Below are positions 8,359 to 47,795 of a stretch of DNA of 64,000 bases, piece by piece. Both the position numbers and the translations under genes were made by a program. Below the pieces are notes generated by a model that saw only the letters and a list, made by a program, of their open reading frames with translations, had not been told where the DNA came from and did no database searches. The stretch spans positions 32,761 through 96,760 of the IMG/VR virus record IMGVR_UViG_3300010935_000101; one strand, 5' to 3'. This DNA is from a virus. Position 1 is the first letter of the stretch, and each line of letters begins with the position of its first letter.

Positions 8359-8849
8359 CTTTTGACAGATGGATATCAACACACACAAAGAAAAAAAATA
8401 AGATATTATTAAAACTAGTAGGTAAAACTGATGTAGAGATAGTTGAGTATTTTAAGTGGGATAACATGGTTCTAACAGAACCTAAATACTGTGAATTATA
8501 CGCAACTAAAAGTAAGTGCCACATAGTAGACAGCTTAAACTGTCTACTATGTGGATGTCCTTTCTTCAAAGTAACACCAGAAGAAGATCTCAGTACAACA
8601 GGCATGCTAGTCATGAGTAGTTGCTCAATAAACTCCAAATATGTGGACATCTTCAATTTCACTAATGATGATGGACGTGTATGTAGTCAATGTGATTGTA
8701 CTAATTGCTCAATTAACCATACCGATAGCTTTGCTCTCAACTCATTAAGAGCAGATAACCCTGATTTCTGTAATGATACGTCCAGCTTTTTGGAACATTT
8801 AAGGGCATATCAATTTTCAGAAATATTAGGAAAGTACAAATTATTTTGA
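8355..8849 (+). CDS. Cysteine-rich small-domain (PF04071-like) protein coupled to the B12 RNR
   Basis: The 164-residue protein starts at TTG overlapping the RNR stop (TTGA). Its middle follows the 'cysteine-rich small domain' pattern: KCH, then NCLLCGCPFF, then a Gly preceding VCSQCDCTNC and an IxH. That family is a probable metal-binding unit known next to or fused with cobalamin-related enzymes. Coupling to a B12-dependent reductase suggests a role in cofactor supply or enzyme maturation (inference). A perfect 15-bp inverted repeat lies within the gene at 8519-8554. Confidence 0.7.
   Translation: MTFDRWISTHTKKKNKILLKLVGKTDVEIVEYFKWDNMVLTEPKYCELYATKSKCHIVDSLNCLLCGCPFFKVTPEEDLSTTGMLVMSSCSINSKYVDIFNFTNDDGRVCSQCDCTNCSINHTDSFALNSLRADNPDFCNDTSSFLEHLRAYQFSEILGKYKLF
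8519..8554. repeat. Perfect 15-bp inverted repeat inside a coding sequence
   Basis: CCACATAGTAGACAG (8519-8533) and CTGTCTACTATGTGG (8540-8554) are exact reverse complements around a 6-base spacer. No T tract follows, so it is not a standard terminator. It codes for part of the metal-binding segment. Confidence 0.95.
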
Positions 8850-19600: not shown

Positions 19601-22600
19601 TCGGATCCCCATCTTTATCTAGTTGTGGTTCAATCTCAATTCCTTTGTCTGTTACTTTGAATACGTCATTGAAGTTAGCAGTAGCTGTTTCAGCACTTAG
19701 CTTGTCTGGATCCATATCTAACCCTTGCATGATGCTTGCCTCTAGCATTTGTCTGCTATCTGCATCATTTACGTCCACTGACTCTGTACTACCTTCAGCA
19801 ACTACGAATTCTCTATGTAGTTTACTCTCTTGGTATTGTATGTCATTCAGTATTGTGTATCTTCCACTTACTGTTTGGCCCCAATCTAAGTAAAACTCTT
19901 TACCTTTTGTTGCTTTAGCGAATGTCTTTAATATCTCCCATTCCCTAACTAATTTGTCATTTCTAGCCCTTTGTGCATCTATTTCACTTACGTGCAATCC
20001 GGCAGTATCTACATCTACGTAACCCATTGCTTTTAGTGCTTCTTTTTCATCCATCTCTAACCATCTTTGTAATCTTGGACTAATTTTGTATGCAGTCTTT
20101 TCAGTGTTATTTAGGAATTCTACTGACTTTGCATCCATTGGATTCTTAGTATTCATCACTGTTCTATTAGCATTATCTTTTGGTGCTTTCAAACTTGGTA
20201 ATGGCCTATTTCTATTTTCATTCAGGTATTGTAGTTTATTGATTGCTTTAGTTAATGCACCTCTTTCCACTCCAATATTTTCCCAATTTGTTTTTATTAA
20301 GTTTTGGTTTTTTCCACCAGCTTCTAGTGGTTTACCATCCATTGAACCATTTTCAGTTGCTATCACCTGTACTAGTACACCCAACGTTGACTTGAATGAC
20401 TCCTCTGTGAACTCTGGAGTAGTCTCATTTAGTCTGATTCCTAAGGCTTGATATACTTCACCACCAATGTCTTTTCTAATACTTGCTGAATTCACGTATC
20501 CTTGAGCAGCTTCTTGCTTTACTCGGATTTGCTCATCTGGATCTGTAATTCCTAAGTACTGCGCCATTTCTGACTCATCAAAGCTTAGTATCTTACCAAT
20601 CATTGCTTGTGAATCTGCAAGCATCTTAGCTGTGAAGAACTTTAGTATATTTTTTGTTTGCTCATCAATCTGCAATTTGCCATCTTTTGTTGTACCAAGT
20701 AACTCTATTATGTCAACCGGAGCTGACGTTTCTTGTTGCTCTAGCACTCCTGTGAATTCACTAACTTGTTTTATTGACTTAACTGGATTTCTGCCTGATG
20801 TTTTAACGTGCACTTTGTCACCATCTGCTGATTCCACTATGTATGCTTGTTTATCCGCATCTTGTAGTTTATCACCTTTTACCACTACTTTCTTGATTGG
20901 CACATACTTATTAATGTGTTTTATTACTAACCCATTATTATCTATGTTTTTACTGAGGGTATTATTACCAACTATTATCGTGCCAATTTTGGTATTGTTT
21001 AAGTAATCGGCCATTGTCTTGAAGTTCTCTAGCAGCTCAACTTTACTCTCAGCATCTGTTATGAAGAACTCTTTGAATCCTTTTGGAAGCACTTCTAGTA
21101 GTCTATCAGCCTTAGCGAACGGATTTCCAGTTAATTGTCCGAACACACTATCATTTGCTCTCTTAACTAGTCTGTGTATTGGGCTATTTGCTGGGTAGTT
21201 AATTAGCAATCTGCCTATTAATTTAGCACTTAAGCTTGTCTTACCAGCTTCTATTTCTTTTAGTTCATCTCTTAGTTCAGCTATTTTATCATTTTTAACT
21301 AATTCTAGTGCTCGATTCATTGCTGTTCCAGGAGCTTCTAGCTTACCGTCTTTCTTTAATTGTCTTTTAGCTATTACTCTTTCACCATTAACATCAACTA
21401 CTGGTGTACCATACAATTCTTCATCTATTTTAGTAATCGTACCAATTGTTGTCTTAACTGGCTCACTTGTAAACTCAGCTTCAATTGCATTGATAGCATC
21501 TAGTATTGTTTGTAGCTCAGCATTAACTTTACGGTATTGCTTGTTTGTTTTCTTTAGCATTTTATCTAATCTATTGATTTGCTTTATCATTTGCTTCACT
21601 AACTTATCAATCTGTGCAACCAATCCAGCAAGTATACTTTTTGCTTCTGTGTCGTACTTTCTGTTCATTCTTTTATCTAGGGCTGTCTCAAGTCTGTCAA
21701 GCATCTTACCAAGTCTTGTTCTATCCTCTTGTAAGTCCCCAAGCTTCTTAGCGTAGTACTCTTTCACATGCTTTTTAACATTCATATCTTTAACACCATC
21801 AATTAATGCACTTAACTCTTTATTAACAAATTCTATCTTTGCTCTAACTTCACTTAGCGGTCCATTATCTGATTCAACTTGTTCTGGGAGGACACCATCA
21901 TCTATTGTTGCTTCGACTGGTTCTTGGATAAGTCTTTCCTCTTCCAGTCGAGTAAGCTCTGCTATGTCTTCTTCACTCATATTTTTGTAGTCTGAGTCGA
22001 ACCCTTTTTCATTCATTATCTTTTTAACTTCTTGCTTAGGTTCATCTTCACTTTGACCCATCTTCACTTCTGAAGCTTCTTTCATTCTTTGTTGTTTTGT
22101 AGTACTTTCTAAGCTGCCTTTTGGCTTAGCAACTTTCTTTGGTTGTTTAGCTTTCTCTATTAACTCATTATATCTTTTAGTCTGGCCTGGAGTAAGTTTT
22201 AACTCACCAGCAGCGTATCTAGTCACGAACTCTTGTTGTTTCTTAGTTAAGTTACTTAGGTCTTGAGTTTCTTTTACCTCTGTCTTAGTAGGCTTCACAG
22301 GGACCCCAACATCAGCAGACTTCTGATTAGCTTTAAGTTTTTCTGAACGTGCAATCTCCGCTTCTCTTTTTTCTTTTTTAATACGTTCTACATCTTTTAC
22401 ATAAGTCGTATCTTTATACTTTTGATCATTTAACATAGTGGTTTCTCTATTAGTCACTGTAACATATATACTTCTAAGACGTTTTCGCTCTTTACCATTA
22501 GCATTTATGGCTGCTTCAGTCAGAGCATTTTTATATTCTTCCAATTCTTTTACAGTCATCTTTTTAACGTTTTTAATAACTTTAAATTTAACCTCTGTTT

Positions 22601-25600
22601 TTTCAGTAACTGATGCTACTTTTTCTGAGTTTTTGTACTCATCCATCAGCACTGCTTTGTTATCTACTACATCGCCAATCTTTGTCTTATTTTCGCCTGC
22701 AACTAGTTGGATTGATTCTGAACCATCTGTTTCAACTTGGAATGCAAGTGCACCTTTTATTCCCTTTGGTTTTGTGGTTTCATTTAGTATTTTTTGTCTT
22801 CTTTCTAGTTCTTTATTAGCCTCTAGTGCAGCATTTCCAGCAGTTTCTAGCTCTGCTTCATACGATTTTCTATCAGTTTCACTAATACTTTTTAACCCTT
22901 TAGCAGTCTTCAGTAAGTTCTTAATAGTTACCAACATTGCGCCATTTTCTTTTGCCAGTGTACCGATAAGTACATCAGTCTGGTATGCTACTTTATTTTT
23001 GGTTGCTCGTAACTTTCTTAGTCTACTAGCAGCAAATCCAGTCAATCCTTTTAGCGTTACTGCAGTTGTACCCTTGGCCTCTATCACAGCAGCTGCTTTA
23101 GCTTTTGGGTTCAACATCTTCTTAGTTAATTCATTCTCATATACTGTCAATCCTGGTCTATTTGGGTCTGCATGCAGATTATTACCTGATTCGCTAACTA
23201 TGAATCCCAGATCAGCAAACTCACTGTTTACTGCAGTTGAATCTTTGTTTTCTAGGTAATTCTTTATTGTATTTTTTAACTTTGTTATTGATTCTGTTGT
23301 ATCCCCAATATCTTCTGAACCTCTAATAGATTTAACTGCAGCTTCAGTAGCATCAATTGTGTCCTGTATTTCTTTTATTTGAGATACTATTGTTTCTTGA
23401 ATACCTGTTTTTTCATTAACTGCTTCACCCAAGTCTTTTAGCTTCTCAGATGACACGTCTGTATTCTGGTTTATTGCTTCAACTAGTTTTCTAGAGCTCT
23501 CATACACAGTCTCATCAACCATATCTTTAAGGTTGAAATCTACTTTTTCATCTTTATCTAGTTTTGCTATTGTTTTGTACACATTATCAATTGCTGTTGC
23601 ATCGCCAGATTTAGTTGCTTTATCTAGTGCTTCTTTAATTATCACACCATATGTTGTCTTCTTACTAGCACTTGCATCCAAGTTGTCAACCATTTTACCG
23701 TGTATAGCTTCAACCTGTGACACAACATTCTCAGTATCACCTGCTATTATTGTATCAATTGTTTTAACTTTTAGTGGTGTTACATATTCTCTATCTTCTC
23801 TCAGTCTTTTTTGTACTGGGGTTTCTGTTGCTCTCTCAACAGCTGTCTTACCAGCATTGAATACTTTTGGGGCTGCGTTTATAACCACCCCTGGAGTTGA
23901 ACCAGCAACTGATTGGCCTATACCTATTAACAGTCCTTGATAACCAGCGTGGCGTATAGCTTTTTGAGATGCCTCATCCAATAGACCCCATACTTTTTTA
24001 CCATCATATTTAGTAGTGCCAACCCTCTCAATTAACATTCCAAGAACCTCTTGAAAAGATTCAGTACTGAATTCTTCAGTACCTGCAGCAGCAAGTTTAG
24101 TAGAACTTTTAACTATTGCTCCAATGGTCTTAGCAACGATACTCTCTCCGGCCTTTATTGGAAGGGCTTTAAACATGATATCAATGACCTTCTTATTAAC
24201 TCCACCCAAACCTTTACCAACACCAAAAGACAGTTTAGCTGCAACAAAATCTGCACCTAATTCTACTGCTGTACCACCAGCTACTGCTAAGGTAGTTTTT
24301 AAATCAGCCGCTTCCCCTGTCACTTTTAATCTTTCATCCAGATGTTGATTAGTAGCACCTGCTAACATTGCCATAGGCTGTTTACCTAATGCGTACATGT
24401 ACGATAATGAATCTGCTATAGCTTGAGGTATAGCTTCTTTGTGGTTATATACTTCCTTGAGTGTGTTAGCTACTTTTGTATAGATTGGTTCATTACTACC
24501 CCATATTCCGTCCATGCTATTATTAAAGTCCTCTGTAATTTTTTGGTATTTAACATCATTAGCTCCGATCAGTGTATTGAATGCTTGTTTTGATGTCTTA
24601 CCATCTTTTTCATAACCCCAGTAGTGTCTGACTTGTCCATCACTATCTACTTGGAATCCTAATTTACTTAAATTTGGTAAATCTTCTTTGGTTATATCTC
24701 CACCAAAAGCTCTTGCAGTTTTTTGTGCTAAATTAGCTCCAGCATCAAAGAAACCATCTGCTACATCAGCAGCAGTAGCTCCTATTGTTGCAGCAACACT
24801 CTTAGCAGCATTTTCCCAGTATGGAGCATTAGCTTCTTGTTCTTGTATGTATTTAGCCAATGCTTCTTTAGTTGGTGTATTATTATCACTTCTGGAATTT
24901 TTTACTTTACCTGCAAAGGCATTTTGCAATGGATCTATTGTTGCTTGTACTGTTACTTCTTCACCATACAAGTTTCCTAATGCTGCTCCACCTCTTGAAC
25001 CGATGTCTCCAAGCTTTTGACTAATTATTGGCACGTTTAAGGGTACTTGCTGTGTATTGCCAAATTCATCTTTGTACTTCCCAGTTAGATTAGTTTGTTC
25101 CACACCTCGAATTAGTGGAGCAACCCATCTATCTTCTCCAGGAGTTCTTGCTAAGTCAGCAAGTTTTTGTATTTGTTGTTGATTAGCTACATCTAACATA
25201 TCTTGTTCTGTGACTGTGTCTACAGGCTTATTAAGTATCATTCCAACTTGATTTCGTTGCATTTGCATGGAATACGTTGATTTACCAATCTCTCCAGCAG
25301 CTCTACGCTCTTTACTAATTCCTTGCATGTCATAAGGATTAGTGCCATGCTGTGTTTCAACAGCATCATACCTATTTCCATATGGATCTACTTCTCTAGA
25401 GTAGCCTAGGTTTTTAGTAATTGCTGTATCAGCATCGTATAGACCTTGTAGTGTATCTTTAGAGTATTTGGAAGTGTCTCCTAGTTTAGCAACTTTTTCT
25501 GCTGTTCTTTGATTTAGTTTATCTATTTTCTCTTGGAGGGTATCTTTTTGAGCTGTTGGACTGTATCCTGCAATCAGTGTTGCGAATTCTTCATTAGTCA

Positions 25601-25601
25601 T
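16698..25601 (-). CDS. Virion-packaged RNA polymerase (N4 vRNAP-like) with C-terminal SLOG-like domain
   Basis: At 2967 residues this is the largest gene. The polymerase motifs of the N4 branch of T7-like enzymes are present: TVSGR (1910-1914) followed by an N-x-Q-x-S-K-L-x-R stretch, motif A around D2065 (EIDAITSG), and motif B RSIAKSPVMVYIYG (2207-2220). The probable motif C Asp is D2474 (NVYDAVV). In N4 this enzyme is ejected with the DNA and transcribes early genes from hairpin promoters. The first ~1750 residues contain a hydrophobic stretch (about 250-520) and long coiled coils, probably for ejection. Residues ~2779-2945 look like a SLOG/DprA-type Rossmann fold (YAGIGSR, GADKAF, GGTGQAVEMA). 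Only one cysteine is present, near the C-terminus. Confidence 0.9.
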   Translation of the reverse strand: MTNEEFATLIAGYSPTAQKDTLQEKIDKLNQRTAEKVAKLGDTSKYSKDTLQGLYDADTAITKNLGYSREVDPYGNRYDAVETQHGTNPYDMQGISKERRAAGEIGKSTYSMQMQRNQVGMILNKPVDTVTEQDMLDVANQQQIQKLADLARTPGEDRWVAPLIRGVEQTNLTGKYKDEFGNTQQVPLNVPIISQKLGDIGSRGGAALGNLYGEEVTVQATIDPLQNAFAGKVKNSRSDNNTPTKEALAKYIQEQEANAPYWENAAKSVAATIGATAADVADGFFDAGANLAQKTARAFGGDITKEDLPNLSKLGFQVDSDGQVRHYWGYEKDGKTSKQAFNTLIGANDVKYQKITEDFNNSMDGIWGSNEPIYTKVANTLKEVYNHKEAIPQAIADSLSYMYALGKQPMAMLAGATNQHLDERLKVTGEAADLKTTLAVAGGTAVELGADFVAAKLSFGVGKGLGGVNKKVIDIMFKALPIKAGESIVAKTIGAIVKSSTKLAAAGTEEFSTESFQEVLGMLIERVGTTKYDGKKVWGLLDEASQKAIRHAGYQGLLIGIGQSVAGSTPGVVINAAPKVFNAGKTAVERATETPVQKRLREDREYVTPLKVKTIDTIIAGDTENVVSQVEAIHGKMVDNLDASASKKTTYGVIIKEALDKATKSGDATAIDNVYKTIAKLDKDEKVDFNLKDMVDETVYESSRKLVEAINQNTDVSSEKLKDLGEAVNEKTGIQETIVSQIKEIQDTIDATEAAVKSIRGSEDIGDTTESITKLKNTIKNYLENKDSTAVNSEFADLGFIVSESGNNLHADPNRPGLTVYENELTKKMLNPKAKAAAVIEAKGTTAVTLKGLTGFAASRLRKLRATKNKVAYQTDVLIGTLAKENGAMLVTIKNLLKTAKGLKSISETDRKSYEAELETAGNAALEANKELERRQKILNETTKPKGIKGALAFQVETDGSESIQLVAGENKTKIGDVVDNKAVLMDEYKNSEKVASVTEKTEVKFKVIKNVKKMTVKELEEYKNALTEAAINANGKERKRLRSIYVTVTNRETTMLNDQKYKDTTYVKDVERIKKEKREAEIARSEKLKANQKSADVGVPVKPTKTEVKETQDLSNLTKKQQEFVTRYAAGELKLTPGQTKRYNELIEKAKQPKKVAKPKGSLESTTKQQRMKEASEVKMGQSEDEPKQEVKKIMNEKGFDSDYKNMSEEDIAELTRLEEERLIQEPVEATIDDGVLPEQVESDNGPLSEVRAKIEFVNKELSALIDGVKDMNVKKHVKEYYAKKLGDLQEDRTRLGKMLDRLETALDKRMNRKYDTEAKSILAGLVAQIDKLVKQMIKQINRLDKMLKKTNKQYRKVNAELQTILDAINAIEAEFTSEPVKTTIGTITKIDEELYGTPVVDVNGERVIAKRQLKKDGKLEAPGTAMNRALELVKNDKIAELRDELKEIEAGKTSLSAKLIGRLLINYPANSPIHRLVKRANDSVFGQLTGNPFAKADRLLEVLPKGFKEFFITDAESKVELLENFKTMADYLNNTKIGTIIVGNNTLSKNIDNNGLVIKHINKYVPIKKVVVKGDKLQDADKQAYIVESADGDKVHVKTSGRNPVKSIKQVSEFTGVLEQQETSAPVDIIELLGTTKDGKLQIDEQTKNILKFFTAKMLADSQAMIGKILSFDESEMAQYLGITDPDEQIRVKQEAAQGYVNSASIRKDIGGEVYQALGIRLNETTPEFTEESFKSTLGVLVQVIATENGSMDGKPLEAGGKNQNLIKTNWENIGVERGALTKAINKLQYLNENRNRPLPSLKAPKDNANRTVMNTKNPMDAKSVEFLNNTEKTAYKISPRLQRWLEMDEKEALKAMGYVDVDTAGLHVSEIDAQRARNDKLVREWEILKTFAKATKGKEFYLDWGQTVSGRYTILNDIQYQESKLHREFVVAEGSTESVDVNDADSRQMLEASIMQGLDMDPDKLSAETATANFNDVFKVTDKGIEIEPQLDKDGDPNKTQVAIKQAYEALRDGKIDAEAMAEVFADSEGHHGISSIELLVDWDQAIKDGTKIETHANLEIDAITSGMILTLLQIGSDLALRLAEKGGIYTEARKPQLEAYVKKWLGDTVEFTPGALIEAGKKHAAEIEEKMKGLSGEKLAELRKELESDDTFKDLYSTIGVAMIGEVQAYKTKLEGLDKPSELEIQQLAMLNQIGELNLKNIRSIAKSPVMVYIYGASISSIKKKLTYSLGVNTLVKAIKTASKKLKAGENADKELEFVKTFIPKEKYVNEFGAKVETPSERWEQLLALDIQPAIDTIDSVIKETFGTAIETAFDSRLGFVNKNRDAAKAIEMLVFEAYQIRLADEVNKFLDAKYGKGRHKGETYRLSKEDMQSINAKLTAEGHGHNIVWDETEGRVNQSLNKTGDKGGIHSTKVTVGNTSVGGQIKQFKPAVNTGAAPTISIHAIDGRMMLDVLNRELGGKYAGGNVYDAVVLSLDKAMLTDTADSYNTNMIETGFNRSIVADQLGMLENMLATMDEKQKKRMFANIGLRPEGELREDYTNETNRIGLGIGKMLDSLETAEEVNKERLANSAKGYYSGHLFQMGSGIAKIDASETRAKEFPAIETIKRLLQNKLAADRKVTKKEFANKGIKLNANTDYVFNLSDIANKKTQVESKANIAQISEKSDGKLKVDNKLWDLLSANDTVEIIGEYSESKKKDSQSWHYNNITNKLANSDAKIVTKIDLTKFGRELVNGVWVKSDIKSISNDTKETAVESSNRPIFDSLPSYQKGQNTMTYAGIGSRQTSKETLILMTKVAAWLAKKGYKLQTGKTFGNKEEGADKAFSDGTTNKELFGPEMATEKTKAIAKELHPAPQYLREGGLKLMARNTNQVFGKNLDTPVDFVLFNSEETKNPMRPKGGTGQAVEMARVKGIPTINMMDKDWRKQLEAVINKSKETAKQEEVIIAPSEVFNKNVNKKIECKD

Positions 25602-34742: not shown

Positions 34743-35201
34743 TTACTGCCATACTGTACCGTCTGGTAGTACGACTTTATCAATGCCTTTTCCTTGTTCT
34801 CTCTCAAAGTAGCCTCTTAGTTCATTAACATAATTCGGATTTCTTTTGAATTGACTCTCACTTGGAGCGTACACCCATCCGGATTTATCCTTTGACCAAG
34901 TGCCTCCTTCAGCTGCTTCCAGTCCTTTTATTGCGTAGGGACTTTCATCACTGAATGTAGGATGTCCTGGTAGCTTACCACCAGGGAGCCCAGTTAACCC
35001 CAATCCTCCTGGGTTATCTGCAGCGTGGAGTCCTTTAGCACGTCTATTGACTTCATTAGCTGCTTGACTATTAGTTAATACATAATTTCCTAATAGTGCA
35101 GAATCCCTTTGCAGGGAAGCTGAGTCTAGTCCAGTACTGTTTTTAGCAGCATTAACTAATTCCATAGCGTCTGCTAATGTTAGCATATTTGGACTAGCCA
35201 T
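34743..35201 (-). CDS. Hypothetical portal-adjacent protein
   Basis: The 152-residue protein has a helical first half, a Gly/Pro/Leu-rich linker (GGLGLTGLPGGKLPG) and a compact aromatic end. It overlaps the portal gene by eight bases, so it is probably translated in coupling with it. It may be a neck or head-completion component. Confidence 0.65.
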   Translation of the reverse strand: MASPNMLTLADAMELVNAAKNSTGLDSASLQRDSALLGNYVLTNSQAANEVNRRAKGLHAADNPGGLGLTGLPGGKLPGHPTFSDESPYAIKGLEAAEGGTWSKDKSGWVYAPSESQFKRNPNYVNELRGYFEREQGKGIDKVVLPDGTVWQ

Positions 35202-37353
35202 TTGGTTGACCCTTGTCTTTCTCAGCTAACTTTGTAGCCGCATCAAACTCTTTGTCTAACTCGTGTTCATTTCTTTTTTGTCCTGACACATCTTTTACGA
35301 ATTCATTTGCAAGTGCATCAGCTTCTTCTTTTAACTTATCAGCATTAGCAAGTGCTTCCTCCGCTCTACCAAGTGCTTCTTTTGATTTAGCGTTTTTTAG
35401 TACTCTGTCAAATTTATTTTCTTCTGCTCTAGAAACTCTTTCTACAATTCTTGAATCCATTTCTTCTAATTCTTTTCTCGCAATTACTATTTTCAACTTA
35501 GCTTCTTCTAGTGCAAGCATTTGTAATTCCTCTTGAACTGGGTTTGGTTTTGGTTCATAACTCTCTATTGACTTAGCCAATCCAGGTTGTTTCCACAACT
35601 TAGCAATCTTCGCTCTGTATATCCTTGCCTCAGCAGGATCCATGCTAGCAGCATTTGTTTGTAATAACGTATTTAGTTTGTTAGCAGTATCTTGATCTTT
35701 CTCTGGTGTAGATACATCAATTTTTAAGTCGAATTCTCCGGCCAAGTCATCTCTACGAATAGTAACGAATTCTTCATTAGTTACCCTAACTACTTCTTCT
35801 TCACTTAAGTATGCTTGGTTCATAGCAATTGTAAGTCTTGCCATATCTTTGAATAGCTCACTTAATCTTCTTAGTATACTCAACTCTCTTTGACTTGTAG
35901 CATCTAGTGCTGATCTAACCCCGCCTACGCTATCTCCAAGTGCATTACCTGATATCCCACCAGCAAATGCTTTCGTACCAGTTAGCGACTCAGCATCCGA
36001 TTGTTGCCATTGAATCATATTGAATACGCTTGACGGAACTGGAGCAACTGTGTTTTTGTATATTGAATTTTTTGGGTTTAATCCAGCTCTATAATAAACT
36101 GTATTACCTTTTTCGTATTGTTGTCTAACGGACATATTTGGGAATAGTGTTTCATCTATGAACTCTTGTCCAACTGCTTGTTCACTTGTTATGTCATGCG
36201 CAGCTCTTGTCAATTTACCAATTGATTCTTGATTTTCCCTCAATAACTCAGCATCTGGTTCACCCATTACTTCTTTTTTGATTGGCATGTATTGTGCTAT
36301 ACTGAATGGCAACCTTTTGTGTGGGAATGGATTTTCCTCTAATCTAATTAGTATCTCTCCAACCCATGTAGCAACTATTGGCACTAATTCATCATCACCA
36401 TTAATATCCCAATAGCCCCAGTATTCATAGGCTGTTAATTTCTTTCTAGCTTTATCTGTAAATTTAAAATTATTATATGCGCTACTTTTGTGTTCATCAT
36501 ATATAGCTTTACCATCTTCATCTTTCAGTAATTCCAAGTTGTGATAGACACCAGAAACTTCTCCAGATTCTGCATCCTTGAAGTACTCTTCTTTTTTTAA
36601 TTCAGCAATATTAACATCATATTCATGAATTATGAAATTAGCATCTTCAATATACCCTTCACATGTAGGGTCAATTATTATATTAGCAGTATTACATACT
36701 TCGTATTTTGGTTGGTTTTTTACTATCTTTGGAACTTCAACTTCAACTTCTCGAACCCCAGTTTGCATTGGTTCACCAGAAGCCATCCTTTGTTGGAATT
36801 CAGCCATAGGCATTTGTCCACTTCTAACTGCCTGCTCCATTAGCATTAACGATTCTTCTGGACTAGCATACACTGGCTCTTCTTGCATTACTTTGACTAA
36901 TTTTTCTTCAACTTCCCAACCAGTTTTAGTTATCACAGTACCATCATCAACAACATATCTAACTATGTCATTTATTAATTTAACTTTATTGACTTTAGTA
37001 GACCATTGATAATTTAGCAGCAATTCGTTTTGTTCTGCTGCTTTAACATCTTCCCATGTTCTTGGGTTAATCTCAAACATATCTTCGGTATTTAGGAATG
37101 GATCTTCTAATTTTGGATACTTCCACTCAGCATTTTTTCTAACTACCTTTGGTCTGGCAGTAGACTTACCTGGTCTGGCACTAATTTGTGGCCCACCATC
37201 TCTATCTTCTTCATACTGCAGTAATTTCTTTTTGTAATCTTCATGGAATGATGAGGACCCATCTAAGTCATTTTTGAAATCATTATATGTCGGCTCATTT
37301 TCCCACGTTGTGAGTTTTTTAGCCTCATTAAGTTTTGTTTTTTGTACTTTCAT
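35194..37353 (-). CDS. Portal protein (N4 gp59-like)
   Basis: At 719 residues, this has the size and layout of podovirus portals: an N-terminal clip/wing region, a NIIIDPTCEGYI segment, a central stem region with QWQQSDAESLTGT and a Gly-rich SGNALGDSVGG turn, and a long charged coiled-coil 'barrel' tail (about residues 600-719). It would form the 12-mer through which DNA is packaged. It is located between the lysis genes and head genes. Confidence 0.82.
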   Translation of the reverse strand: MKVQKTKLNEAKKLTTWENEPTYNDFKNDLDGSSSFHEDYKKKLLQYEEDRDGGPQISARPGKSTARPKVVRKNAEWKYPKLEDPFLNTEDMFEINPRTWEDVKAAEQNELLLNYQWSTKVNKVKLINDIVRYVVDDGTVITKTGWEVEEKLVKVMQEEPVYASPEESLMLMEQAVRSGQMPMAEFQQRMASGEPMQTGVREVEVEVPKIVKNQPKYEVCNTANIIIDPTCEGYIEDANFIIHEYDVNIAELKKEEYFKDAESGEVSGVYHNLELLKDEDGKAIYDEHKSSAYNNFKFTDKARKKLTAYEYWGYWDINGDDELVPIVATWVGEILIRLEENPFPHKRLPFSIAQYMPIKKEVMGEPDAELLRENQESIGKLTRAAHDITSEQAVGQEFIDETLFPNMSVRQQYEKGNTVYYRAGLNPKNSIYKNTVAPVPSSVFNMIQWQQSDAESLTGTKAFAGGISGNALGDSVGGVRSALDATSQRELSILRRLSELFKDMARLTIAMNQAYLSEEEVVRVTNEEFVTIRRDDLAGEFDLKIDVSTPEKDQDTANKLNTLLQTNAASMDPAEARIYRAKIAKLWKQPGLAKSIESYEPKPNPVQEELQMLALEEAKLKIVIARKELEEMDSRIVERVSRAEENKFDRVLKNAKSKEALGRAEEALANADKLKEEADALANEFVKDVSGQKRNEHELDKEFDAATKLAEKDKGQPNG

Positions 37354-39480: not shown

Positions 39481-39729
39481 TTATTCTCCTTCACTTTTAA
39501 AGCAGTGATTTTGTTCAAACTTTCTAAGTAAGCAACATAAAGCTTTCTCAAACAAGTTAGCTTCGTTCCTTTGAATCTTTCTTCCTATATAACTACTTAT
39601 TGTTTCATCTTGTGATTTGTTCCACCCAACACAACCAATGGCTTGGTCAAAGGATATTACTATCCTCATAACCCTACTCCTCTTAGCTATATCTCTATCA
39701 AACTTACTAAAGAGTTCTTCTTTTACCAT
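39481..39729 (-). CDS. Hypothetical protein
   Basis: The 82-residue product is rich in Arg and Lys with four cysteines (AIGCVGW, ALCCLL, NHCF). It overlaps the 284-residue gene by seven bases, so it is part of the radical-SAM operon. No family is recognised. Confidence 0.55.
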   Translation of the reverse strand: MVKEELFSKFDRDIAKRSRVMRIVISFDQAIGCVGWNKSQDETISSYIGRKIQRNEANLFEKALCCLLRKFEQNHCFKSEGE

Positions 39730-40577
39730 ACTATTGCCTTAACTTCATCTACAGTTGTACAAGCATCTACTTGTTTTATAAGTCGTTGAAATTTACCAAT
39801 TTGACCAGCATAAAACACAGAGTAAGCATCCGCTTTGGTGATCACTTTATCTATAAGTTGGGATTTAGTTTCACCATTAGCTCTTGAAGCCAGTAACACA
39901 TCTATAAAAGGAGTAGCTGCCAAGTTATCTAATAACCAAGCCCTAGCTTCTTTTTCTTGCGTTGTAAAACTAGCAATTTCCCATGAGGCGGTATCTCCTA
40001 GAATGCCACGCAGCTCCTTATCTTGTTCAGTTTTTAGCCATATCTTCATATCATTCTTAGCATCTATTATGCTTATATTCCAAGCTGTAGTGTAGAAGTA
40101 ATGGCTTCTTAAAAAAGGGTACTCAGATAATGTATCTGGGGCATACTTTGTGCCTTTATTATACCTAGTATCTCCATAACCAATATACATGCCTGTTACT
40201 GAGTCCACCAAGCAGCATACTGCCCATGAGCCCTCATACCATTTTTCATTCTCTCCGGATGGTGCAGTATCAACAACTAAATACTTATCAGTATTATTAA
40301 GCTCTCCTACATAGTTCCCCCCAGCATCAACACAGTGATATAGTAATATAGGTTTTGGCTCAACTACAGCAGCAATAGGAGGAGTGAAACTGTCTATGAA
40401 TGCTTCTGCATTTAAAATCTGCTCATCGTTTAATGGTATATCATCCATCATCTTTAGTGTTGGTTCATAGTAAAAATTTACACCTGTAATAAAACTAGGT
40501 TTTATTGCGGTATCACTATAAAAACCAATATCGTTTATTACAGTTATCTTTCCTTCGACATAGGTAAGTACTCTCAT
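39723..40577 (-). CDS. Tail-fibre-type protein with C-terminal helical domain
   Basis: Residues about 200-284 follow the pattern of a helical domain frequent at the C-terminus of phage tail fibre and fibre-assembly proteins: ARAWLLDNLAATPFID, ASRANGE, LIDKVITKADAY, GKFQRLIKQVDACTTVDEVKAI. The middle has Cys/aromatic-rich strands (LLYHCVDAGGNY, WAVCCLVD). It overlaps the radical-SAM gene stop by four bases. It may be an appendage component or a chaperone for it. Confidence 0.65.
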   Translation of the reverse strand: MRVLTYVEGKITVINDIGFYSDTAIKPSFITGVNFYYEPTLKMMDDIPLNDEQILNAEAFIDSFTPPIAAVVEPKPILLYHCVDAGGNYVGELNNTDKYLVVDTAPSGENEKWYEGSWAVCCLVDSVTGMYIGYGDTRYNKGTKYAPDTLSEYPFLRSHYFYTTAWNISIIDAKNDMKIWLKTEQDKELRGILGDTASWEIASFTTQEKEARAWLLDNLAATPFIDVLLASRANGETKSQLIDKVITKADAYSVFYAGQIGKFQRLIKQVDACTTVDEVKAIVW

Positions 40578-42394
40578 TTGTCATCCTTCATATATACAAA
40601 TTTTAAATTATGAAAAGGTATATTTATGGCTTGTATATGGTAAAAAGCATTTTTTGCATGTTTTTCGTAATGGTAAATTCTTGCTTGTTTTGTTGTGAAA
40701 AATATACTGTTAAATACACCATCTAAATAGCTATCTTTATGCCTATGTATAATGTCTGAAATATCTAAAATAATTTTATCACCATCCACAGACTCGCTCA
40801 TTTCTAGGATTTGATTATAATAAATTCCCTCTTCCCATAAATGCTCTTGTTTAGTTCTTTTCTCTTCACCATAAGTTGTTGCAGTATTTCTAAGCATACT
40901 GATTTTAAGCTCATTACCTGAAAGACTATCCTCTTCACAGTTTGCTAAAAAGTATTTTTTATCCATCTCTAATTTAATCTCATCACTGGACTTAATGCCA
41001 TATATGGTTTGAAAGCTAAACTCTTGTGGCTCTAGTGGATATACCTCTCCATTCACTATTATCTTAAATATACCACTCTCATAGATAACCTTGAGCTTTT
41101 CGTCGTTATCGATAATACTTTGTAACTTTTGTTCCTCTGAGTAAAGTTCAGGAGTAATGATATGGTGATCTCTTTTTGGATATACCTCAGTAAATTTTTT
41201 TATGTACTTTGGGTTATTTGACAATACAAAATCTTTTACATATTCCTCTATCTCCTTAGTTTCCATCATTGGGTATCGTCTAGGGTTATCTCTATAGAGT
41301 GCTCTTTGAACTCCACACGTATAACTTCTATTAAGTCCTGTCTCTTTGCGGACTAACGAGCAACCTTGTTGACAGTATTTAAAGTAAGGGCAGGTAAAAC
41401 AATCATCACTAATCTCAAGAGTGCTCTCATTTTTCTCTATTACTTTTGTTGCATTTTCTTTTATCTTCGAGAAGCCATCCTTAAATATATTTCCATATTT
41501 GTACTCTGGGTCTGGCTGTGTTCTGTGGCAGGGATACACATCTCCATTCTTTTGTAGTATCAATTGGGTTGTTCCACAATTTTTAACATCAGTACAGTAA
41601 CCACTTTGAAACTCTTTGAACCAACCATACTTGATGGCTTGCTCATATGGAGTGCCTATAAATTCTTGCTTTATCTTTTGATAAAACTCTACCATCTCGT
41701 CCTGTGATAGCATTTCTGTGCCCTCTATCTTCTCTTGAAACTTGTCTTCACTTGCTTTAGAGTCATATCCAAACATGAAGTAAAAGTTTTCTATCATATT
41801 AAACCCTATCACTTCATGCATGTACCTCAAGTCCTTGACGACTTCATCAATCTTCTCTAGGTGTGCTTTGGTAATAACACAAGACAAGCCTTTGCCATAC
41901 TTATAGTCTTTTAATAGGGATATGTTCTTCAGTGTTTTTTCGAGTGTTGAATTGCCTTGCTTATCTACTCTATATTTAGCGTGTAGACTAAATGGTAAAT
42001 CAAAAGAACCACTTACTGTTACTTTGTGCTTACTATACAGCGCTTGCAATTTAGCAAAGTTATGTAAGTTTGTTTTAATATGGATATTAGCCATCCGGAC
42101 AGATCCAGCAGTCGCCACGTTTCTTTCTAGACTGTTCTCACTTAACTTATTTGTCATATACTCAAACATTTCAGACAAATATTTTTCAGGTATAGTAGAT
42201 ACTTCTGCTCCATGCAACTGAAATCTAGATATACCATAACCGGCTTTTTCAATCTCTTGTACAGCCTGCTCTAGTTTTGTGGTTATGTCAGTATGTGTAT
42301 CTTTATTATCTGTAAGGCTACCTAAGTAACAATATTTGCAGCCAAAGTTACAGTATTGGTTTGGCACATATATAAGCGCTATATGTTCTTTCAT
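40574..42394 (-). CDS. Radical SAM/SPASM enzyme, peptide-maturase type
   Basis: In this 606-residue protein the radical-SAM cluster motif is C15-x3-C19-x2-C22 (CNFGCKYC). A SPASM region (about 265-370) has the order YCTDVKNCG, NGDVYPCH, GNIF, then CFTCPYFKYCQQGC, which would bind auxiliary Fe-S clusters as in enzymes that form thioether or C-C crosslinks in peptides. The last ~200 residues are an unassigned domain. ATGA couplings link it to the 200-residue protein before it and the fibre-type protein after it. Its likely substrates are the 34-residue peptide or the Cys-rich tail protein upstream (inference). Confidence 0.9.
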   Translation of the reverse strand: MKEHIALIYVPNQYCNFGCKYCYLGSLTDNKDTHTDITTKLEQAVQEIEKAGYGISRFQLHGAEVSTIPEKYLSEMFEYMTNKLSENSLERNVATAGSVRMANIHIKTNLHNFAKLQALYSKHKVTVSGSFDLPFSLHAKYRVDKQGNSTLEKTLKNISLLKDYKYGKGLSCVITKAHLEKIDEVVKDLRYMHEVIGFNMIENFYFMFGYDSKASEDKFQEKIEGTEMLSQDEMVEFYQKIKQEFIGTPYEQAIKYGWFKEFQSGYCTDVKNCGTTQLILQKNGDVYPCHRTQPDPEYKYGNIFKDGFSKIKENATKVIEKNESTLEISDDCFTCPYFKYCQQGCSLVRKETGLNRSYTCGVQRALYRDNPRRYPMMETKEIEEYVKDFVLSNNPKYIKKFTEVYPKRDHHIITPELYSEEQKLQSIIDNDEKLKVIYESGIFKIIVNGEVYPLEPQEFSFQTIYGIKSSDEIKLEMDKKYFLANCEEDSLSGNELKISMLRNTATTYGEEKRTKQEHLWEEGIYYNQILEMSESVDGDKIILDISDIIHRHKDSYLDGVFNSIFFTTKQARIYHYEKHAKNAFYHIQAINIPFHNLKFVYMKDDK

Positions 42395-42993
42395 ATTTTG
42401 TCCCCATTAAAAATTTCACCAGAATTTCTCAAATCTATTAAAACTTTAAAATACTCATTATCCCAACTCTTTGCCCTATAGGTATATGGAACACTTCCTC
42501 CGGGTACTTGTCCTAAAACATAATGTAGAAAATCACAAATGACCGTTGCTTTATCGATGTTATTTTGAAGATACAGTTTCGCTTTTGTGAACATCTTCAT
42601 TCTAATAGTATTTTTGTCCTCTTTTGCTCTATTGTAGTAACCGTCAATTAATCTGAATGTTTCTTCTAGTGACAAGTAACCATCAGCATGTCTATCATCT
42701 TTGTTTTGTAAAAATCCATTAGTAAAATACTTACTTAATTTTTCTTTGTACTCTGGCTGCCAAGTTCTTTTAACTTCATCACCAATAGGGGACTTACCAT
42801 CACAAAATCTATGAACAGCCAGTCTCATCATCTCTGGCATAATTGAGTTATCTGCTTGTATTACAGATATTATCTTGTTAAGAGTTTGTGGCTTATTCAT
42901 CTTTCCGGAGTCCAAGGCCATGTCCCGTCCTTTTTCTAAGGCAGATATAGCTGTTTTTACATCCACCCCATTTATTTTGCTATTTATCCCCAT
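42391..42993 (-). CDS. Unknown protein coupled to the radical-SAM enzyme
   Basis: The 200-residue protein is mostly helical with two cysteines. Notable segments are RFCDGKSPIGDEVKRTW, a DGYLSLEETFRLID stretch resembling an EF-hand-like loop and a C-terminal aromatic region. It overlaps the enzyme start by four bases and follows the 34-residue peptide with an AAGGA site. A substrate-recognition or scaffold role is possible by position only. Confidence 0.7.
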   Translation of the reverse strand: MGINSKINGVDVKTAISALEKGRDMALDSGKMNKPQTLNKIISVIQADNSIMPEMMRLAVHRFCDGKSPIGDEVKRTWQPEYKEKLSKYFTNGFLQNKDDRHADGYLSLEETFRLIDGYYNRAKEDKNTIRMKMFTKAKLYLQNNIDKATVICDFLHYVLGQVPGGSVPYTYRAKSWDNEYFKVLIDLRNSGEIFNGDKI

Positions 42994-43004
42994 TGTATTT
43001 TCCT

Positions 43005-43109
43005 TTAGTGATTGCTGTTGTTTGTACAGTTAGTTGTTATACACGTACCATATGTTGTGGTTGTATTTACTACATAACTTAAATTCTCTGCTACTGCTAC
43101 TGTTGTCAT
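43005..43109 (-). CDS. 34-residue two-cysteine peptide, candidate radical-SAM substrate
   Basis: ATG 43109 follows GGAG at 7-base spacing and lies three bases after, and in frame with, the stop of the Cys-rich tail protein. The peptide has 34 residues: an Ala/Val/Leu N-terminal half, a TTTT run, then YGTC, four residues and a second Cys (C23, C28), ending in an Asn/Thr-rich tail. It has no Lys or Arg. Location directly before the 200-residue protein and radical-SAM enzyme, and a leader/core-like layout, suggest a modified peptide. It could also be a readthrough tail of the upstream gene. Confidence 0.6.
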   Translation of the reverse strand: MTTVAVAENLSYVVNTTTTYGTCITTNCTNNSNH

Positions 43110-43112
43110 ATT

Positions 43113-43616
43113 TTATCTCCATTCATATCTATTGTAATATATATCTCTTTTACAGGCTGGGAAAGAATAAGAACATGGACACCCAGAGCAAGATGCACAT
43201 AGTGCACATGTGCTGTACCTATAAAGTAACCAGTCCTTATTATCTGCTACCCTATTACCATTCGCATAAGCATAACATTGATTTATGTACTGTGCAGCAT
43301 TAATTGCGTAGGCATCAGTTGTGAACCACACATCCATCAATTTGCCTAATCTAGAACCATCTGCTGCCTGAAGTACGCCAGCCCCATTAACGAATAGTTC
43401 CCCCTTGTCTGCATACTCAACTATGTCTCCGGCAGCACTAACAGCGTATGCATCCACATTATTATCTACCAGAATTGCACCGCTATGAACAATAGTCCAC
43501 GTTCCTGCAATCTTACGATACACTTTTTTAGCTTCCGTCCATACGCTAGCTATATTTCTGTATACCTTTTTAATAGGAGTCCAAACTCCTGCTATTTTTT
43601 TATATGTCTTTGCCAT
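43113..43616 (-). CDS. Tail-tip-like protein with C-terminal six-cysteine cluster
   Basis: In this 167-residue protein, three 14-residue repeats of the form KIAGVWTPIKKVYR (residues about 6-45) resemble tip repeats of phage fibre proteins. A repeated DAYAxxAA segment follows. The C-terminus has Cys at 137, 140, 143, 146, 148 and 155, a C-x2 ladder, then an aromatic/basic end. Its ATG overlaps the repeat-fibre gene stop (TAATG), so it is translated with it. The ladder could hold a metal cluster, disulfides, or be crosslinked by the nearby radical-SAM enzyme (inference). Confidence 0.75.
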   Translation of the reverse strand: MAKTYKKIAGVWTPIKKVYRNIASVWTEAKKVYRKIAGTWTIVHSGAILVDNNVDAYAVSAAGDIVEYADKGELFVNGAGVLQAADGSRLGKLMDVWFTTDAYAINAAQYINQCYAYANGNRVADNKDWLLYRYSTCALCASCSGCPCSYSFPACKRDIYYNRYEWR

Positions 43617-45016
43617 TATGTCATGTACCACCAGTCATTATCTACTCCACCACTTGGTGCGGAAACTGAAACACTTATAGTTCCACCTAACACTTTAGTT
43701 GTATCTGCTGCTGTGGCAGTCGTCGCCAACTTACCGGCTAAAGCAGTGTCAACTTCTGTCTTTGTATATGTTGTAGCTTGGTCTGCTTTTAATACATCCT
43801 TAGCATCTATACTAGCTTTAGTATATGTATCTGCTATACTAAATGTACCATAAGCTACTATATCTACTATATCATTTAGATTAGCACCTAAAGTTAAAGT
43901 TATGCTTGTGCCATTAGTAGCTGTAAAGTCTACTGTTGCTTGTAACTTACCACTATTTAAATATACATCTACAAACCCTACATCATATGTAACATTGAAT
44001 ATAGTTTGTCCAGCTGTTGCAATATAAACTTGCCTCTCTGATGTACCGTTTACTGAACTACCAGCTAATTTCCATATTGCACCATCATATATTTTCATAA
44101 GAAATGTAGTTTCATCAAACCATAAATTACCTAGTACAGGAGTTACTGGTTCTGTTGGTGAACTTTTATATTGTCCTTGAAATGTATTTAAACTATTTAA
44201 GGCACTAGCTGCACTTGCAGCTGTTTCACCTGCTTTGGTTGTAGCTATTCCTGCCTGTGCTGTACTTATAGTAGCATTAGTAAGAGCATTTAATATAGCA
44301 CTATCAGTAGGTTGATTAGTACCTATTCCTTTTACTATATCTGCATATAATGCATCTAAGGTTACTTTGTCTGTAAAGATGCTATCTAGCTTAGCTTTAT
44401 CAGCGTATATACTATCTAACTTGGTCTTATCAGCATATAAACTATCTAACTTTATTTTATCAACAAACAAACTGTCCAGAACTGCTTTACTTGCGTATAG
44501 ACTGTCTAATGTTAATTTATCAGCGTATAGAGAGTCAAGTTTAATCTTATCAGCATATAATGAGTCTAATGTTGCTTTATCAGTAAATAAAGAATCTAGT
44601 TTTGCTTTATCAGTAAAGATAGAGTCAAAAGTTAATTTATCTGCATATAAACTATCCAATGTAATTTTATCTGCATATAAACTATCCAATGTAATTTTAT
44701 CTGCATATAAACTATCCAATGTAATTTTATCTGCGTATAAGCTATCTAATGTAGCTTTGTCTGCATATAAGCTTTGCAATACAGCAGACATGGCTTCTAG
44801 TACCAATAACTGATCTAGAGAATTAATGGTAGCACCAACATTAGAGTACATAGTCTGTATAGAACCATATATACCAGCACCTAATCTTGGGGCATTATCA
44901 CTATCAGTTGTTTTACTTACTATGTCATGATAAATACCGTCTGTATATACATCACCTGGTGCACCACTTCCTCTAATTTCCCGTAAAATTTCAATAAAAT
45001 CTTTATTTCCGGCCAT
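43616..45016 (-). CDS. Repeat-containing tail fibre/appendage protein
   Basis: The 466-residue protein carries about 14 consecutive decapeptides of the type ADKITLDSLY (roughly residues 80-225). A helical linker, a GNLWFDETTF-IYDGAIWK domain, a DVYLNSGKLQ domain common in T7-type fibres and a C-terminal DWWYMT end follow. It probably forms the long part of the N4-like appendage. ATG 45016 has GGGGAG at 7 bases and is preferred to an upstream TTG. Confidence 0.8.
   Translation of the reverse strand: MAGNKDFIEILREIRGSGAPGDVYTDGIYHDIVSKTTDSDNAPRLGAGIYGSIQTMYSNVGATINSLDQLLVLEAMSAVLQSLYADKATLDSLYADKITLDSLYADKITLDSLYADKITLDSLYADKLTFDSIFTDKAKLDSLFTDKATLDSLYADKIKLDSLYADKLTLDSLYASKAVLDSLFVDKIKLDSLYADKTKLDSIYADKAKLDSIFTDKVTLDALYADIVKGIGTNQPTDSAILNALTNATISTAQAGIATTKAGETAASAASALNSLNTFQGQYKSSPTEPVTPVLGNLWFDETTFLMKIYDGAIWKLAGSSVNGTSERQVYIATAGQTIFNVTYDVGFVDVYLNSGKLQATVDFTATNGTSITLTLGANLNDIVDIVAYGTFSIADTYTKASIDAKDVLKADQATTYTKTEVDTALAGKLATTATAADTTKVLGGTISVSVSAPSGGVDNDWWYMT
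44350..44780 (-). repeat. Tandem 30-bp repeats coding the fibre decapeptides
   Basis: Degenerate 30-bp units code the decapeptide array. Three successive units at about 44640-44730 are identical at DNA level, so they arose recently and could change in number by slippage without changing frame. Confidence 0.9.
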
Positions 45017-45018
45017 AT

Positions 45019-45477
45019 CTATACTCCCCAAACATGCATTGTATCATAACAGCTATCTTTATCGAACTTCAGTGTTTCAGCATATGCCCAATCACTTAGT
45101 GTTCTAACCACTAGTTCCGATGCTATATGTATTATACTAACTTCATACTGTGTCTTAGCTTCAGCGTCTACTTGAGCATCAGTCCACAAAGGATTTGCAA
45201 ACATTATTGTGTTAACTATTCCTTGGTAATTTATATAGTCCCAATAAGTCTCTTTTTCTAATTGGCTCATTTTAGCTAAACACTCATTACTATCAGCATC
45301 TCTCAGCACCATTATAAAGTGCTCTGTGAATACTACTTTAGTATTTGCACCATCCACAGTATCTTTGAATATGAACGGCTTATTATTTGATTTGAATAGA
45401 TTCTTAGCCTCTTGTGTAGAAGTCGTTACAGTTGTTGTAATAGCAGCATTAAGAGGGTCAACTAACAATTTAATCAT
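45019..45477 (-). CDS. Probable tail/connector protein
   Basis: The 152-residue protein starts at ATG 45477 with AAGGAG and overlaps the previous stop (ATGA). Mixed alpha/beta. It sits between a connector-like gene and the fibre gene, the place of tail-tube or neck proteins in N4-like phages. No specific motif is seen. Confidence 0.6.
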   Translation of the reverse strand: MIKLLVDPLNAAITTTVTTSTQEAKNLFKSNNKPFIFKDTVDGANTKVVFTEHFIMVLRDADSNECLAKMSQLEKETYWDYINYQGIVNTIMFANPLWTDAQVDAEAKTQYEVSIIHIASELVVRTLSDWAYAETLKFDKDSCYDTMHVWGV

Positions 45478-45938: not shown

Positions 45939-47795
45939 TTAGTAACTATCATATGCACTAATTTCATTTGAAGTCTTTGCTTCATAGTAGTGTAATCCAT
46001 CTGGAGTTGTCATTTTATTCAATGGAGCTTCATATGTTGGATAGTACACATGCATAGTCACAACCGCCTGGGTTATCAAGTCTGGACCATCATCAGATCT
46101 AGTAAACGTACTGTGTGTAGCACCTTTTATCTGTGCAATAAATTCAACTATATCCGGAGTATTTTTGAGATGCTCTGGAAACCACATCTTTTGATTCAAC
46201 AACACTTGACTAGCAATTCTGAATCTCTCATGTTTGTCGATACCAGTATTCTTACTTAACAGTCCCTTTCTTGTGCTATCTAATTGACCTTTTTGTTTAG
46301 CAAAGCTGTAGAATGTTCCTTGATCTCTCATTAGTTTTTCCAATGCATTGACATGTGCACTTTGATTACCATCTACTTCAACACCAATTTCTACATTTTT
46401 ACCTCTACGTTTCCACTTAGCAGCTTCCTCTAATGTTAAAGCATACTGAGTATCCATTCCCATTCTCCGCAAACTCAAGTTCAACAGGAACCAGTCTTCA
46501 TTACTACTTACTGCCCAAGTTGCAATACCACTAAAGTTTGATTTCTCACCACTCGTCGTTGTATAATCCGTTGTTATATACACATTATAAGCTTCTATGT
46601 TCTTCTCTATTACTTTAGTATCACAAAACTGTAAACAATTATCTGGAATTAATCTTTCACTACCACTGGTTAGTCTAAGCATACGCTCTTGCAAGAATAA
46701 CTTTAACTCTTTAGCTTTTTTAGCACGTTTTAATAAGCCAATTATAGACACCCTAGGATGCATTGCTTCCCAACTACTATGTATTGCAGTTGCTTTCAAG
46801 TTTGGATCCTCAGCATCAAATGTTTTGGCCATTGGTATGATTATTGGTGTGAATGAACCATTAAGTATTGCTCTAGTATTAACATCACCATAGTGGAATG
46901 GTGTAAAATACAACAGTACCCTGCCTTTTCCTCCACCTTTTAGCGCATTCACAGCATCGGAATGTAACACAGTATGTAAGTTATCACTCATTACTTTTGA
47001 GTATGCTGCAGCCGTATTTAGTATTGTGTCATCAAATAATAACGCACAGGGTCTTCTTTCACCATATCTACTACCACGAATACCAGTGTTCAATCCTTGG
47101 TATCTTATTAGGAATGACCTATCTTTCTTTTGTACTTTACCTGTGGGGTCTTTTCTAATGAACTCACTTTCTGTCTCTGTAAATCGCATATCCTCGAAGT
47201 AATCATTCAAGTATACACTTTCTTCACACATTGCTTTTACTGCCAGTGCATTAACTCTGGCACCACCTTTACTTGATGCAGCTATTAGTAAATAAAACCA
47301 CACTTTACCAATCCCATTTGGCAACTTCCCTTTTAACGCACTGTATACGCCAAAAAATGATATACCAACTGTTGATTTTGCTAAACCACGACTCGCCATA
47401 AATCCTAATGCATTAATATCTATCTCTATTGTCTTACATATCTCTTCACTGTATGGAAACATCATTGGATCTGTTATATAACCCAATAACATATCCACCA
47501 TAAAATAGTGAGCTATTGGAGTGTCGAACTCGAAGTCTCCACCTTGTACTAATCTCATTAATATGAAGAACTCGAACGCATCCTTGCTTGGAGTGTATCT
47601 TGGGAATGTTGGGTCATAACTATCCAATGCACCATCTAAGTCGAACTCTGCATTTTCCAGTAGCTCTACAGCTTCTACAGCAGCTTGTCTCTTAGCTGCT
47701 TCATCAACGACATTCCTTACCATGTCCTCACCGTAGAGTTCAATCAGCTCAGCAAGCTCTTCTCGTTTCTGTTCTTCAGTTAGTTCAATCTTCAT
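45939..47795 (-). CDS. Terminase large subunit (N4 gp68-like)
   Basis: The 618-residue packaging motor has a Walker A variant SRGLAKST near residues 134-141, Walker B CALLFDD, and a nuclease-domain acidic motif YITTDYTTTSGEKSNF with further Asp in the C-terminal part (DDGPD). It would cut concatemers and drive DNA into the prohead. It overlaps the preceding gene by 11 bases. In N4 this gene also follows the appendage genes. Confidence 0.88.
   Translation of the reverse strand: MKIELTEEQKREELAELIELYGEDMVRNVVDEAAKRQAAVEAVELLENAEFDLDGALDSYDPTFPRYTPSKDAFEFFILMRLVQGGDFEFDTPIAHYFMVDMLLGYITDPMMFPYSEEICKTIEIDINALGFMASRGLAKSTVGISFFGVYSALKGKLPNGIGKVWFYLLIAASSKGGARVNALAVKAMCEESVYLNDYFEDMRFTETESEFIRKDPTGKVQKKDRSFLIRYQGLNTGIRGSRYGERRPCALLFDDTILNTAAAYSKVMSDNLHTVLHSDAVNALKGGGKGRVLLYFTPFHYGDVNTRAILNGSFTPIIIPMAKTFDAEDPNLKATAIHSSWEAMHPRVSIIGLLKRAKKAKELKLFLQERMLRLTSGSERLIPDNCLQFCDTKVIEKNIEAYNVYITTDYTTTSGEKSNFSGIATWAVSSNEDWFLLNLSLRRMGMDTQYALTLEEAAKWKRRGKNVEIGVEVDGNQSAHVNALEKLMRDQGTFYSFAKQKGQLDSTRKGLLSKNTGIDKHERFRIASQVLLNQKMWFPEHLKNTPDIVEFIAQIKGATHSTFTRSDDGPDLITQAVVTMHVYYPTYEAPLNKMTTPDGLHYYEAKTSNEISAYDSY

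Follow-up and report, generated by a model that had tools for sequence, protein, structure and literature searches.

A radical-SAM/SPASM enzyme among the tail genes of a distant N4-like phage and its candidate Asn-tailed substrates

INTRODUCTION

Which protein or peptide is modified by a radical-SAM/SPASM enzyme whose gene lies among the tail genes of a phage? The question is raised by a gene run in a stretch of viral DNA of 64,000 nt (positions 32,761 to 96,760 of IMGVR_UViG_3300010935_000101; whole record, 96.8 kb), here called the window. The initial annotation of the window proposed that this phage modifies a tail protein or peptide after translation, with cysteines as the target. The comparisons described here support the idea of such a modification but not the Cys target. 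The genes of the run are as follows, in their order on the minus strand.

43616..45031, minus strand: 471-aa repeat fiber with LDSLYADKxT repeats; matches phrog_21412 (tail fiber)
43113..43616, minus strand: 167-aa Cys-rich protein (ATG at 43616); matches phrog_25859
43005..43109, minus strand: 34-aa peptide, MTTVAVAENLSYVVNTTTTYGTCITTNCTNNSNH; proposed substrate via its Asn-rich C-terminus
42391..42993, minus strand: 200-aa protein, between the 34-aa peptide and the enzyme
40574..42394, minus strand: 606-aa radical-SAM/SPASM enzyme (Pfam, NCBIfam, PHROG, alignments, AF2 model, and Foldseek)
39723..40577, minus strand: 284-aa protein with a C-terminus (...TVDEVKAIVW) like that of DUF4376-type tail-fiber chaperones

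RESULTS

A tightly coupled gene run in a distant N4-like phage

The run was confirmed as the tightly coupled minus-strand unit that had been described, in the same order and with every named ORF present; it had been counted as five genes, but the accompanying list has six. The stop codon of the fiber and the start codon of the 167-aa protein overlap by 1 base (TAATG, as read from the sequence). Gaps of 3 and 11 bases separate the 34-aa peptide from the 167-aa and 200-aa proteins, respectively, and 4-base ATGA overlaps join the enzyme to the 200-aa protein on one side and to the 284-aa protein on the other. The ORF of the 167-aa protein is listed as 43113-43631 when begun at a GTG; the ATG at 43616 is the start that overlaps the fiber stop. 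The run lies between genes for the terminase (45939-47795) and the portal protein (35194-37353).

The window phage is a distant N4-like virus, as had been suggested. The window encodes the virion RNA polymerase of N4-like phages (Schitoviridae; phrog_2206), a portal protein (phrog_1216, 2e-177), a major head protein, and a terminase. The polymerase, portal, and terminase matches are mostly distant, as are the nearest records to this phage, with 28% identity in the terminase. The virion RNA polymerase is encoded by two adjacent minus-strand ORFs (12826-16695 and 16698-25601), each matching a different part of phrog_2206; close to its C-terminus, at residues 2778 to 2941, the first polymerase ORF has a DprA-like domain.

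The description of the run as a phage appendage module was a fair one. The N-terminus of the 167-aa protein has repeats of the K-IAGVW type, a phage tail element, and partially matches EVC27_082 of Rhizobium phage RHph_I1_6 (Schitoviridae), which also lies between terminase and portal. Its C-terminus carries a Cys ladder, CALCASCSGCPC...C, and most of its 7 Cys lie within 19 residues. The last gene had been called fiber-type; the gene is there, but its identity as a fiber is not clear, and its C-terminus is chaperone-like, matching phrog_2618 (8e-16) and, weakly, the Campylobacter DUF4376 chaperones (hhalign, E of 0.003). For the 200-aa protein, neither phages nor viral contigs gave a match, and it could not be aligned with the 211-aa protein at the equivalent position in the Campylobacter phages, to which homology was not detectable; it is possibly an accessory or fiber-assembly protein. 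Elsewhere in the window, a 164-aa ORF on the plus strand (8355-8849) contains 11 Cys (6.7%), the highest Cys content among gene-like ORFs of at least 60 aa.

The enzyme is intact by its motifs and has an additional domain

The 606-aa protein has the radical-SAM motif CX3CX2C at residues 15 to 22, scores above the gathering thresholds of Pfam Radical_SAM and SPASM, and exceeds the cutoff of the NCBIfam SPASM domain. It matches phrog_1802 over its full length (residues 4 to 601 of 606, 1.5e-49). Alignments showed that all eight SPASM cysteines (C267, C273, C289, C332, C335, C341, C345, and C360) are invariant in the family, with the spacing given for the anaerobic sulfatase maturase anSME (PMC5682303), and two auxiliary clusters are therefore expected. 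As judged from these motifs, the enzyme is intact, with ligands for one radical-SAM cluster and two auxiliary clusters.

A further domain of ~235 aa begins at approximately residue 372. It is strongly conserved in the family, with invariant YG-E-R-K--H and TT---R--HY-K---N--YH----N-PF motifs, and was modeled by AF2 as a mixed, beta-rich fold (mean pLDDT of 78). No PDB structure matched this domain below an E value of 0.001. The enzyme scores far below the cutoffs of all NCBIfam equivalog models among the matches listed, and no NCBIfam or Pfam model names the enzyme group or covers the Corynebacterium or L074 precursors tested (see below).

In sequence and among solved structures, the enzyme is closest to anSME, which likewise has eight SPASM cysteines, and it might thus be a sulfatase-maturase-like protein that oxidizes a Ser or Cys residue of some enzyme of the host or the phage. 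However, the score against the NCBIfam anSME model (TIGR03942) is 82.8 bits, compared to a cutoff of 349.45, and no sulfatase was noticed near the window enzyme. The family also has the additional domain, and the residue after C289, presumably the position of the catalytic Asp277 of anSME, is His or Val. Cutoff and gene context argue against identity as a sulfatase maturase, and a related role in oxidizing Ser or Cys is very improbable.

Full-length relatives occur in Campylobacter phages or prophages and in Actinomycetota

Full-length relatives were found at 36 to 43% identity. Of 50,697 annotated phage records, only that of Campylobacter phage CAM-P21, which is Mu-like, encodes one, so that the earlier statement that no such system was known in N4-like phages held in this search. 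Scans of viral contigs found full-length relatives in Campylobacter Mu-like prophages only, together with two matches (L015 and L016) that were far weaker, at 22% identity. A gut phage-like contig (L002, 22.9% identity) was rejected as a family member; its gene adjoins a sulfatase gene and belongs to an ordinary sulfatase maturase.

Genome contigs yielded relatives in Campylobacter and in two Corynebacterium species, and targeted genome searches found the enzyme in 8 of 242 Corynebacterium and 5 of 49 Campylobacter genomes. One further enzyme-bearing genome came from 396 Actinomycetota genomes drawn across the phylum; in its family, 3 of 138 genomes carry the enzyme. In a tree built from 11 family members, the branch of the window enzyme is long and not firmly placed. 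Two copies of the enzyme gene, in the second prophage of C. jejuni 414 (L031, 5959-7751) and in C. suicordis (L035, 1165-3266), are split into two ORFs; these are decayed genes or sequencing errors, and an Asn-tailed partner is still nearby in both.

Proteins with Asn-rich C-termini are encoded beside the enzyme

In every family locus with a readable neighbor, a gene adjacent to that of the enzyme, or one gene away, encodes a protein with an Asn tract at its C-terminus. Such a candidate partner was seen in three host groups as well as in the window, where one gene (that of the 200-aa protein) intervenes.

In Corynebacterium, an ORF of 58 to 111 aa lies immediately upstream of each enzyme gene and ends in SN(n)G or DN(n)G, where n is 5 to 14. 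A C-terminal run of at least five Asn followed by Gly adjoins the enzyme in all eight enzyme-bearing genomes. When the Corynebacterium genomes were scanned for N5-G-stop codons, exactly these eight genomes and none of the other 234 were recovered (Fisher, 4e-15); enzyme-bearing genomes include close relatives, and these counts and this P value, like those for Campylobacter below, overstate independence. No phage genes were recognized near the enzyme at the two Corynebacterium loci read with wide flanks (L085 and L086). A second actinobacterial family showed the same association: the N5-G ending was found in the same three enzyme-bearing genomes and nowhere else, on a protein encoded just downstream of the enzyme.

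Membrane proteins are also encoded near the actinobacterial precursors. In the Corynebacterium loci read, the gene before that of the Asn-tailed precursor encodes a DUF3592-like membrane protein (L017, 1185-1874, and its counterparts); at L074, a different membrane protein, of 178 aa, comes after the precursor. These are possibly export or immunity partners.

The Campylobacter partner is a tail fiber, encoded two genes upstream of the enzyme. Fibers linked to the enzyme end in NNNNY, GNNF, GNNS, NNNNN, or GNNGGSS. An NN end was present on 13 of 13 fibers beside the enzyme and on none of 5 sister fibers, which have the same N-terminal domain and no enzyme (P = 1.2e-4; background, 4/146). The NN end is also kept on fibers with unrelated N-termini (L001, L011, L013, and L014), and fiber-matched phages without the enzyme have a DUF4376 chaperone and a different fiber end at the same site. 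Two Campylobacter Mu-like prophages without the enzyme (L089, 1208-2737; L090, 1268-2598) have a two-gene fiber instead of a single-gene one.

From these associations, we infer that the Asn-tailed neighbors are substrates of the enzyme. The pattern scan and the fiber comparison are two independent tests in favor of the pairing, and a stronger argument than their P values is its recurrence over three host groups and on several nonhomologous carrier proteins.

The 34-aa peptide is the likely substrate in the window

A good ribosome-binding site (ggagataaaatATG, with ggag) lies just upstream of the 34-aa ORF, which is therefore unlikely to be a product of chance. The peptide ends in ...TYGTCITTNCTNNSNH (...CTNNSNH), and no other gene-like ORF in the 96.8-kb record has NN among its final six residues. 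At least three Asn within the last eight residues occur in 4 of 437 six-frame ORFs of the window, approximately 1% by chance. Since neither the fiber (...DNDWWYMT) nor the Cys-rich protein (...RYEWR) carries an Asn tail, the 34-aa peptide was taken as the partner, and it is likely, on the pattern of its C-terminus, to be the enzyme's substrate through the TNNSNH tail rather than through its two cysteines. Most other Asn tails of enzyme partners are longer and purer than this one, and the viral contig scans found no second phage with a stand-alone Asn-tailed peptide, so that the window case is one locus. For both reasons, the assignment is less certain than that of the Corynebacterium pair.

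The same comparison bears on cysteine cross-linking, by which the enzyme would form thioether bridges of the sactipeptide or ranthipeptide kind in the Cys ladder of the 167-aa protein, between the two Cys of the 34-aa peptide, or in both. The ladder is real and unusual, and the weak NCBIfam matches of the enzyme include maturases of ranthipeptides and of Cys-rich targets; however, these matches are far below cutoff and stand alongside matches to most other SPASM maturases. None of the enzyme's relatives has a Cys-rich neighbor, and many of the Asn-tailed partners lack Cys close to the tail. The initial annotation had named, as evidence against its proposal, homologues of the enzyme that consistently lack the small Cys-containing genes; this is the pattern observed, the partners in Campylobacter and Actinomycetota being without a Cys ladder. 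The ladder as the substrate of the family is rejected on this comparison, in which the relatives' partners have no Cys-rich cores; the 167-aa protein is probably a structural neighbor, and cysteine cross-linking by the window enzyme is quite unlikely. Asn rather than Cys is the favored target because the Asn-rich C-terminus is what the partners share, a feature that the 34-aa peptide alone shows in the window.

The Asn tail might instead serve as a recognition signal, with the modification falling on residues that precede it, such as a Tyr, Thr, or Cys of TYGTCITTNC or a beta-hairpin of the Campylobacter fibers. Short beta-hairpin-like stretches are indeed shared by the Campylobacter fibers ahead of the tail, and an SE-S-F-GW-like motif is common to the Corynebacterium precursors upstream of theirs. 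Between groups, however, the upstream sequences differ completely, and the Asn tail alone is common to all. The tail is also the extreme C-terminus, where RiPP cores are usually found. A target upstream of the tail is thus unlikely.

DISCUSSION

Our preferred reading is that the enzyme is probably a peptide maturase that acts on Asn-rich C-termini and is used by phages on tail tips. In the window, it would bind the Asn tail of the 34-aa peptide, generate a 5'-deoxyadenosyl radical, and remove H from the alpha or beta carbon of at least one terminal Asn. A second electron would pass to the auxiliary clusters, giving an oxidized product, desaturated or cross-linked. Passage of an electron through the auxiliary clusters has been proposed for SPASM enzymes with eight cysteines, such as anSME (PMC5682303), and oxidation of the substrate, with a shift of -2 Da for each event, would therefore be expected; epimerization (0 Da) would be the next choice of chemistry. 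The modified peptide is probably mounted at the tip of a tail appendage, a role suggested by the Campylobacter phages, in which the Asn tail is fused to the fiber C-terminus. There, it would stiffen or protect the tip or sharpen host recognition.

Taken further, the comparisons may point to an undescribed class of modification on C-terminal Asn tracts, which would give a small RiPP-like product in free-living Actinomycetota and modified fiber tips in unrelated phages, with the enzyme-plus-tail cassette moving between bacterial and viral gene pools; we regard this wider proposal as evenly balanced between right and wrong. To our knowledge, no enzymatic chemistry on phage tail tips is known apart from glycosylation. 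Tail tips decide which bacteria are infected, and a radical-SAM enzyme aimed at the C-termini of tail proteins would, if true, add a new layer to receptor binding. The Corynebacterium loci offer a clean precursor/enzyme pair with perfect co-occurrence, an easily handled system for the chemistry, and the phage hypothesis is directly testable.

As far as sequence comparison can place it, the enzyme is a radical-SAM/SPASM peptide maturase with a new apparent target, the Asn tract, and, in phages, in a new setting. The portions of the open-access full-text literature consulted describe no radical-SAM system acting on Asn tracts and no radical-SAM enzyme acting on tail fibers; the CJIE1 paper, which mentions radical SAM, concerns capsule genes. 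Within PHROG, phrog_1802 (radical SAM domain-containing protein) matches the enzyme, including the extra C-terminal domain, and has the Campylobacter phage enzyme as its best match; it is a sequence cluster only, with no assigned function or substrate, and the Asn-tailed partner is not recorded there. The anSME proteins (TIGR03942; PDB 4k36 to 4k39), the best PDB match by sequence and fold, have the radical-SAM and SPASM core and the eight auxiliary-cluster cysteines in common with the window enzyme, which differs in its extra C-terminal domain, in the residue after the third SPASM cysteine, and in an Asn-tailed partner in place of a sulfatase. Maturases of the DynA/DarE type, which form cyclophanes (NF041298 and others), are among the top NCBIfam matches of the enzyme core, below cutoff. 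These maturases need aromatic residues in the core, whereas the actinobacterial partners of the present family offer a pure Asn tract. A counterpart in setting is the fiber cassette of Campylobacter Mu-like phages (CAM-P21 and CJIE1-like prophages), in which the same enzyme family lies beside tail-fiber genes; the Asn tail forms the fiber C-terminus there, whereas in the N4-like window phage it is carried by the separate 34-aa peptide.
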